A stretch of DNA of 64,000 nucleotides from Alphaproteobacteria bacterium MedPE-SWcel (lineage in GTDB: Bacteria > Pseudomonadota > Alphaproteobacteria > Rhodobacterales > Rhodobacteraceae), in the NCBI GenBank assembly GCA_001874255.1, contig MPDC01000018.1, forward strand, positions 20,834 to 84,833, given 5' to 3'. A program made the position numbers and the translations under genes. A model generated the notes under the pieces. The model was not told the DNA's origin, ran no database searches, and saw only the letters and a list, made by a program, of their open reading frames with translations. Positions 21,462-24,117 of the stretch are shown piece by piece (position 1 is the stretch's first letter; every line of letters begins with the position of its first letter).

Positions 21462-22394
21462 CTATTCTCCTTCCGACAGGAGCCGCGTTCCGGCGGCCAG
21501 GGGAAAACCGCGCAGAAAGATCTCCCGGTCCTGTGCGCCCTTGCCCGCGCGCTGCAGCCGCAGCAGTTCGACGGCGCCATCGCCACAGGCCACGGCCAGA
21601 TTGTCCCCAAGCACCGTGCCCGGCGCTCCGCTGCCTGGCGCGGGGCGGGGGGCCAGACGGGAGGCCAGAACCTTGATCCGCTGCCCGTCAACCGAGAACC
21701 ACGCACCGGGAAAGGGTGACAGGCCACGGATCTTGCGGTCGACCTCTGCTGCGGGGGCCGACCAGTCGATCTCGGCCTCCGCCTTGTCGATCTTGGCGGC
21801 ATAGGTCACGCCCTCGCTGGGTTGTGGCACGGGCGTCAGTTCCACGAGGAAGGCCAGCGCCTCAACGATCAGCTCGGCACCGGTCTGTGACAGGCGGTCG
21901 TGCAAGAGCGCGGTCGTGTCTTCGGGGCCGATCTCCATTTCCCTGCGCATCAGCACCGGGCCGGTGTCCAGCCCGGCTTCCATCTGCATGATACAGATAC
22001 CGGTCTTTGTATCACCTGCCATGATCGCCCGGTGGATCGGCGCCGCGCCGCGCCACCGGGGCAACAGGCTGGCATGGATATTGAGACAGCCCCGGGCCGG
22101 GGCATCAAGGATTGCCTGCGGCAGGATCAGCCCATAGGCCACAACCACAGCGACATCTGCCGCGAGCCCGGCAAAGGCTGCTTGTTCGGAGGGGGCTTTC
22201 AGCGAGACCGGATGCCGGACCTCCAACCCCAGATCCAGGGCGCGGGCGTGCACCGGCGTGGGACGGTCTTTCTTGCCGCGGCCCGCCGGGCGTGGCGGCT
22301 GGCAATAGACGGCCGCTATGTCGTGACCGGCCCGGACCAGCGCGTCCAGAACAGGGACCGAAAATTCTGGTGTCCCCATGAAGATAACCCGCAT
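21462..22394 (-). CDS. fmt: Methionyl-tRNA formyltransferase
   Basis: Fmt formylates initiator Met-tRNA with 10-formyl-THF. 310 aa. The formyltransferase core has [16 protein letters not shown] at the start and the catalytic Asn-His-Asp region in [21 protein letters not shown] with EAGLDTGPV; the C-terminal OB domain begins near residue 205 ([16 protein letters not shown]). It follows three deformylase genes on the same strand, so addition and removal of the formyl group are encoded together. Confidence 0.96.
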
Positions 22395-22589: not shown

Positions 22590-23087
22590 TCAGCTGCGGA
22601 ATTTGCGCGCCTTTTTCACCAGCATGTCGCGTTTCACCTTTGAGAGATGATCAAAATACATCCGCCCGTTCAGGTGATCGATCTGGTGCTGCACCGAGGT
22701 TGCCTCGATGCCGATGAAGTCGCGCCGGTCCACGACACCGTCCTGGTTCAGGAAGCGGACGGTGACCGCGCGGGGGCGCTTGATCCTGGCGGACACACCC
22801 GGTAGATTGGGGCTGGCTTCGTCATGTTCCCGCAGTTCGACTGACGCATGCAGGATTTCCGGATTGGCGAGGCGTATCGCGCGCCCCCGCTCGGCGGAGC
22901 CATCGACGACGGCAAGCCGCAGCATCACGCCAATCTGGGTCGCGGCCAGTCCGACCCCGGGCATCGCGTCCATCGTGTCAATCATGTCGGTCCAGATGCG
23001 GTGGATTTCTTCGGTGATTTCCGTCACATCCTCCGCCTTTGTGCGCAGTCGTTTGTCCGGCCAGGGCAGGCAGGTGCGTATCGTCAT
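22590..23087 (-). CDS. Peptide deformylase-like protein lacking catalytic residues
   Basis: A 165-aa deformylase paralog. Motif I is kept (GVGLAATQIG, residues 44-53), but motif II, normally EGCLS with the metal-ligand Cys, reads EASPN (90-94), and motif III, normally HExxH, reads HQIDH (134-138), so the catalytic Glu is Gln. Family knowledge says both residues are needed, so hydrolysis is unlikely. The reading frame is intact and coupled by a 4-bp overlap to the preceding def, which argues for a retained non-catalytic role rather than a pseudogene. It is the third of three tandem paralogs. Confidence 0.9.
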   Translation of the reverse strand: MTIRTCLPWPDKRLRTKAEDVTEITEEIHRIWTDMIDTMDAMPGVGLAATQIGVMLRLAVVDGSAERGRAIRLANPEILHASVELREHDEASPNLPGVSARIKRPRAVTVRFLNQDGVVDRRDFIGIEATSVQHQIDHLNGRMYFDHLSKVKRDMLVKKARKFRS

Positions 23088-23593
23088 TGTGCGGGGCTCC
23101 TGGCTGCCAGATAGTCGGTCTCTGCCCCCATGCGGGCCTCGTCCGGGAGATGGTCAAACGTTATTCGCCCGTCAAGGTGGTCGTATTCATGCTGAATGCA
23201 ACGCGCGGCGAAACCGTCGAACTCCTGTTCCCGAGAGACGCCCTCCCGGTCCTGCCACCGGACCCGCAGCTGAGCCGGGCGCGAGATCTCTGTGGTGACG
23301 CCGGGGATCGAGAGGCAGCCTTCCGCGCCCGATGCGATCTCGTCACTGCGCCACAGGATCTCCGGGTTGATCATCACGACCGGCGTCCGCGGCCCATCCA
23401 CCCATGCGACATCCATCACGAAGAGGCGTTTCAGCACGCCGACCTGCGGCGCCGCCAGACCCCGCCCCGGCGCGGCGTACATGGTGTCCAGCATGTCCCC
23501 GATCAGCGCCGAGAGATCCTCATCCGCGCCGACCGCATCGCAGCAGGTCGCCAGTCTCGGGTCCGGCCAGGTCACGATCGGCCGGGTTGTCAT
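23084..23593 (-). CDS. def: Peptide deformylase, second paralog
   Basis: A 169-aa deformylase with all metal-binding motifs: GRGLAAPQVG (motif I, Arg in the variable place), EGCLSIPGV (motif II) and QHEYDHLDG (motif III). It is predicted active and could remove formyl groups from nascent proteins. Start and stop overlap the neighbouring def genes by 4 bp each (ATGA), so all three are translationally coupled. It differs enough from the first copy to be an old duplicate. Confidence 0.94.
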   Translation of the reverse strand: MTTRPIVTWPDPRLATCCDAVGADEDLSALIGDMLDTMYAAPGRGLAAPQVGVLKRLFVMDVAWVDGPRTPVVMINPEILWRSDEIASGAEGCLSIPGVTTEISRPAQLRVRWQDREGVSREQEFDGFAARCIQHEYDHLDGRITFDHLPDEARMGAETDYLAARSPAQ

Positions 23594-24117
23594 GACTGTC
23601 CGCCGCGCGCGAGTTCACGCTTTAGTTTCTGCATCTTGCGGGTGATCATCTGCCGCTTGAGGGGCTTCAGGTAGTCGATGAACAGCTTGCCGTCGAGATG
23701 GTCGATCTCGTGCTGGACACAGGTGGCCCAGAGCCCGTCGAAGGTCTCGGTCTGCAGAGCCCCGTTCCGGTCCATCCATTCCACATCCACCACCCTGGGG
23801 CGGGTCACTTCGGCGTATTGTTCCGGGATCGACAGGCAGCCTTCCTCATAGACGTTGGTCTCGTCAGAAGCCGCGAGCACAGTTGGGTTGAACATCACCA
23901 GCGGGCGGGACACTCCCTCGCCTTCCTTGACGCAATCCAACACGATCAGCCGGTCCAGCACCCCGATCTGAGGCGCGGCGAGACCGATACCGGGTGCGGC
24001 ATACATCGTCTCCAGCATGTCATCGGCCAGAACGCGCAGGTCGTCCGACAGGTCAGGCACAGCGGCGGCAGTCTTTTTCAGACGCGGGTCGGGATGGATC
24101 AGGATCGAGCGTTTCAT
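23590..24117 (-). CDS. def: Peptide deformylase, canonical
   Basis: A 175-aa metalloenzyme removing N-formyl from nascent polypeptides. Motifs GIGLAAPQIG, EEGCLSIPEQYAEV and QHEIDHLDGKLF are all canonical, so this is the most likely housekeeping enzyme. It is the promoter-proximal gene of the def-def-def-fmt run. The 160-bp gap to the divergent MalY gene should hold both promoters. Confidence 0.97.
   Translation of the reverse strand: MKRSILIHPDPRLKKTAAAVPDLSDDLRVLADDMLETMYAAPGIGLAAPQIGVLDRLIVLDCVKEGEGVSRPLVMFNPTVLAASDETNVYEEGCLSIPEQYAEVTRPRVVDVEWMDRNGALQTETFDGLWATCVQHEIDHLDGKLFIDYLKPLKRQMITRKMQKLKRELARGGQS

Follow-up and report, generated by a model that had tools for sequence, protein, structure and literature searches.

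The third of three overlapping deformylase genes in the window (the whole 64,000-nucleotide stretch analyzed here) very probably encodes a catalytically dead deformylase that has been retained by selection, as judged from the sequences of this protein and its relatives. Aligned with the E. coli enzyme, this protein, here called C, carries three fixed changes by which catalytic elements are lost: C90S removes the third metal ligand, L91P the NH of the oxyanion hole and E133Q the general base. These changes characterize a single clade that arose at or near the base of the Rhodobacteraceae, the family to which the window belongs.

Organization of the deformylase cluster

The three deformylase genes and the methionyl-tRNA formyltransferase gene fmt lie on the minus strand and are transcribed in the order A, B, C, fmt. 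Gene A (23590-24117, 175 aa) encodes a canonical deformylase with the motifs EGCLS and QHEIDH and a basic C-terminal helix, gene B (23084-23593, 169 aa) one with intact catalytic motifs (EGCLS and QHEYDH) and a short, non-basic C terminus, and gene C (22590-23087, 165 aa) a protein with EASPN and QHQIDH at the same places; the product of fmt (21462-22394) matches PF00551 and PF02911. The coordinates of the reading frames confirm an earlier note on this DNA, which had claimed three deformylase genes with 4-bp overlaps: both the A/B and the B/C overlap are exactly 4 bp (ATGA). Each of the three products covers nearly the full Pfam profile PF01327, and C reaches 129.9 bits against a gathering score of 22.8, which makes it a member of the deformylase fold family. 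The third gene is thus intact and located in the fmt operon, as had been stated. No deformylase genes beyond A, B and C were found in the source genome.

Fixed residue signature of C

In E. coli deformylase, the metal has Cys90 as its third ligand, Glu133 serves as general acid/base, and the oxyanion hole is formed by the backbone NH of Leu91 together with Gln50; a proline has no such NH. Motif I of C in the window, GVGLAATQ, fits the consensus G-phi-G-phi-A-A-x-Q, and both glycines and the glutamine are invariant among C orthologs. Motif II is EASPNLPG (residues E90-G97 of C, 22797..22820, minus strand), corresponding to C90S, L91P and S92N in E. coli numbering, and motif III is QHQIDH (residues Q133-H138, 22674..22691, minus strand), corresponding to E133Q with both metal-binding histidines retained. 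The replacement of EGCLS by EASPN and of HEIDH by HQIDH, by which Cys and Glu are gone, had been noticed before and is confirmed.

These changes are not peculiar to the window. In a first sample of 130 loci with a C ortholog (one per genus, the window's locus included), motif II was ExSP(N/C/H)L and motif III was QHQ(I/V)DH in 130/130 orthologs, so that EGCLS with its Cys ligand and HExxH with its catalytic Glu are absent from all of them. A was canonical in 130/130 of these loci, and B, present in 71 of the 130, was canonical in most, if looser. The second sample, which overlaps the first in part, comprised 112 copies of C: 80 from named loci, 28 from genomes that are divergent or match weakly, and four that partly repeat earlier genomes. 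No copy departs from Gln133 or Pro91 where these positions can be read, and a single one lacks Ser90 (L289, with the sequence EAPPNL, in which Pro replaces Ser). The conservation on which the earlier note had made its reading depend is therefore found: the residues are not random across orthologs, and the signature occurs in 130/130 orthologs of the first sample and in nearly every copy of the 112. Two copies in the second sample are decayed, namely L300 (genome G225, QHQANH) and L304 (genome G158, fragments with broken frames); traces of the signature persist in them, and they represent the loss of C caught under way.

When the C orthologs were aligned to E. coli def (E. coli numbering), V31W, E41M, C90S, L91P, S92N, I93L, C129S, E133Q and a few other changes turned out to be fixed among the C proteins and to occur rarely in A, and a one-residue deletion relative to the E. 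coli enzyme is likewise fixed. L91P, S92N and C129S go beyond the changes singled out previously. Fixed in A and C alike are G43, G45, Q50, E88, R102, Q131, H132, D135 and H136, which include the pocket and the two metal histidines. Because Q50, H132, D135, H136, E88 and R102 are invariant, the pocket of C seems still to be under selection, or these residues could be structural instead. As to the earlier claim that C should be unable to bind or use the metal normally, the residue losses are family-wide and the protein is probably catalytically dead; a loss of metal binding itself stands as a prediction.

Origin, selection and distribution

In phylogenetic analysis, C formed one clade (SH-aLRT 100), also when the columns of motifs II and III were left out, with a stem branch of about one change per site; B formed a separate clade. 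Both clades lie among the deformylases of the window's own family, with other alphaproteobacterial enzymes outside. The tree indicates a single origin of C, at the base of the family or close to it, and an independent, repeated loss of the motifs is ruled out because leaving out the motif columns does not break up the C clade. Some of the lineages that have only A are located near the base of the tree and others are nested within it, which points to an early origin of C followed by several losses.

The terminal branches of C resemble those of A, both being much shorter than those of B. In 208 loci, the pairwise identity averaged 74.4% among A sequences and 73.0% among C sequences, and in the 111 loci with all three genes it averaged 74.8%, 52.1% and 73.7% for A, B and C, respectively; the median dN/dS (3435 pairs) was 0.215 for A, 0.243 for C and 0.407 for B. 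Such a burst followed by constraint fits what is predicted for a new function and not for decay. A redundant copy in decay is ruled out by the conservation and the dN/dS of C, and since the lost residues are a genuine feature of the whole family, in a gene subject to purifying selection, an intact and probably catalytically dead protein is being kept.

The family was surveyed in 249 genomes (one per genus), 241 of which contain a gene matching C or one of the C paralogs. The order A-(B)-C-fmt was recognized in nearly all of 238 loci, among which are named loci of the well-studied marine genera Ruegeria, Phaeobacter and Leisingera, and the ATGA overlaps were found in most genomes. B exists in about half of the family and almost exclusively in genomes that have C, about half of the C-bearing genomes being without it; L302 (genome G137) and genome G119 are exceptions, with an apparently B-type gene and no C. 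In about 28 of the 241 genomes with a deformylase C is absent and A stands alone, in nearly all cases followed by fmt; no remnants of C were found between A and fmt in these loci, where the matches were to A's own C terminus. These genomes and the decayed copies suggest that the role of C is dispensable in some lineages. Two records deserve mention. One, titled Nocardioides marinus strain DP1N28-1 (L189), contains a Ruegeria-like deformylase cluster and is probably mislabeled or a mixed assembly; in the other, from Pseudophaeobacter leonis (L218:1975-2489), gene A is split across two frames, perhaps by a sequencing error.

A profile search for C in 289 genomes of the class gave 278-311 bits within the family and at most 176 bits elsewhere, which is the level of canonical enzymes. 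The DNA pattern for QHQ(hydrophobic)DH(hydrophobic)xG, searched in 399 genomes of the phylum, matched 27 family genomes and five others; these five matches were unrelated proteins, so that we could not find any QHQ-type deformylase outside the family in the 399 genomes. The plasmid search yielded a single C-type match, on a Pseudorhodobacter replicon. A phage origin of C was considered and rejected: viral deformylases with QHQxDH exist, yet they are not close kin of C. A marine phage deformylase (L383:333-827, identical in L361 and L384) has ETSFS and QHQMDH, the same pair of Cys-to-Ser and Glu-to-Gln changes by independent origin, and it looks like a single lineage because its relatives on viral contigs retain Cys and Glu. 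Short viral deformylases (L351, L359, L396 and similar loci) have an intact E(K/R)CLS together with QHQFDH, and are without the catalytic Glu and the C-terminal helix.

Predicted fold and C-terminal helix

The AlphaFold2 model of C has the deformylase fold (mean pLDDT 95.2), and its best match among solved structures is E. coli deformylase (TM 0.93, rmsd 1.3). The model ends in a helix of residues 150-164 (22596..22640, minus strand), which by its position and net charge is predicted to correspond to the helix with which E. coli deformylase docks on the ribosome. In that enzyme, the C-terminal helix binds ribosomal protein L22, near the tunnel exit (PMC8712518). Over the C-terminal segment that begins at E. 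coli residue 147, the net charge averages +8.1 for A, +6.5 for C (130 orthologs) and -1.1 for B, compared with +6 for the E. coli enzyme; the basic C-terminal alpha helix, a hallmark of type 1B deformylases, is thus present in C according to both model and charge. Taken with the motif states, these charges make B look like a cutter that does not dock and C like a docker that does not cut, a division of labor proposed from sequence features. The link to the ribosome raised in the earlier note gains indirect support from the basic helix, kept by C and missing from B; docking itself stands as a prediction, as do the regulation of the active enzymes and the recognition of formyl-peptides that the note also suggested.

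Proposed role of C and rival explanations

Since the catalytic residues are lost, the conservation equals that of a working enzyme and the ribosome-docking tail is kept, C is evidently used for a purpose other than formyl removal, and a ribosome-associated, non-catalytic role on formyl-methionine N termini is favored because the pocket and the helix look constrained while the chemistry is gone. That C is a pseudo-deformylase kept for such a ribosome-linked role is, as a whole, a plausible reading of the sequences that we hold tentatively. An ancient duplicate of the housekeeping deformylase would have lost the metal-hydrolase chemistry once, near the base of the family, and purifying selection would then have kept it for a non-catalytic job. 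C may dock at the ribosomal tunnel exit through its basic helix, as A would, a basic helix alone being no proof of docking; once docked, it might hold or shield formyl-methionine N termini without cleaving them or, alternatively, compete with A and methionine aminopeptidase for the site. The outcome would be that C sets the timing of deformylation, or which nascent chains undergo it. A bolder form of this proposal, possible but doubtful, is that the family has split the functions of deformylase, A having both, B cutting without docking and C docking without cutting, and that C sits on the ribosome as a factor dedicated to reading formyl-methionine N termini and thereby delaying or directing deformylation. 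If true, C would represent a hitherto undescribed type of nascent-chain factor.

The main rival is that C is a regulatory or scaffolding partner in a heteromer with A, or with B, to which it would lend the missing docking helix. The ATGA overlaps, which imply translational coupling in most genomes, would suit this, as would the complementary states of B (catalysis without a basic helix) and C (a basic helix without catalysis), the near restriction of B to C-bearing genomes, and the C-specific invariant residues W32 and M42, which lie outside motifs II and III. However, B is missing from about half of the genomes with C, and E. coli deformylase functions as a monomer. Any co-variation of the A and C distances beyond shared phylogeny is weak: the partial correlation of A and C given fmt (0.52) is little above that of A and fmt given C (0.42), and that of B and C given fmt is only 0.16. 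We regard a heteromer as unlikely. It is quite unlikely, too, that C acts outside translation, by analogy with B. subtilis DefA, an inhibitor of the tyrosine kinase PtkA in oxidative stress whose effect is independent of deformylase activity; the enzymatically inactive DefA E133A retains both the inhibition of PtkA and the protection against peroxide (PMC11194573), but C is locked in the deformylase-fmt operon and retains a ribosome-type helix that such a role would not require.

C could also still be an enzyme: it might be a deformylase whose metal ligands are unusual, or else a hydrolase of new chemistry that uses Ser90 and the two histidines, both of which are invariant along with Q50 and the pocket. 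Type 3 deformylases of T. brucei are active despite altered motifs, and exact motifs are an unreliable predictor of activity, according to PMC12690207. Nevertheless, metal ligand, oxyanion NH and general base are three independent elements that were lost together, B. subtilis DefA becomes inactive when only E133 is lost (PMC11194573), and the L289 ortholog with Pro for Ser90 argues against a Ser nucleophile, so that an active C seems distinctly improbable. Least credible, and very improbable indeed, is a decaying relic retained only through its position in the operon: C is missing in some lineages and visibly decayed in G225 and G158, but its identity and dN/dS match those of the housekeeping enzyme, and its unusual residues recur without exception (130/130 genera).

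The essential step of deformylation is usually treated as a constitutive housekeeping process and as a target for antibiotics. The existence, beside fmt in a large and mostly marine family, of a dead twin as strictly conserved as the enzyme suggests a regulated or non-catalytic layer in N-formyl processing, and C would be a clean case of pseudoenzyme evolution within a translation operon.

Comparison with known systems

Clustered deformylase genes have already been published: according to PMC12690207 (Mol Biol Evol 2025), 104 of the 145 species with such clusters are Rhodobacterales, 98.1% of the Rhodobacterales reference species have clustered copies and 62.5% have three genes, and the rationale of the clustering is called "elusive". 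These are evidently the same gene cluster as that described here. The passages of its main text that were searched do not state that one member is a pseudoenzyme, and a search of the open-license literature found no paper on a pseudo-deformylase. C as a putative pseudoenzyme offers a concrete candidate answer to the published puzzle.

Among minor deformylases with a function independent of catalysis, B. subtilis DefA, the PtkA inhibitor (PMC11194573), may be likened to C. DefA is, however, catalytically competent, which is not expected of C, and C is not known to be linked to any kinase. Type 3 deformylases, which occur in archaea and trypanosomatids and as inactive accessory copies in S. aureus and S. 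pneumoniae, have substitutions in catalytic motifs as C does, and several of them are reported to show weak or no activity (PMC12690207, PMC5591237). According to PMC12690207, type 3 is marked by changes in motifs I and II, whereas C has an unaltered motif I and carries its substitutions in motifs II and III; it groups with its family's own enzymes, in a tree that contained no type 3 sequence. With type 1B deformylase (E. coli Def, PF01327), C shares the fold, the length, motif I, both metal histidines, E88, R102, the basic C-terminal helix and the adjoining fmt gene, and it differs from that enzyme in C90S, L91P, S92N, C129S, E133Q, V31W and the one-residue deletion, all of them fixed.
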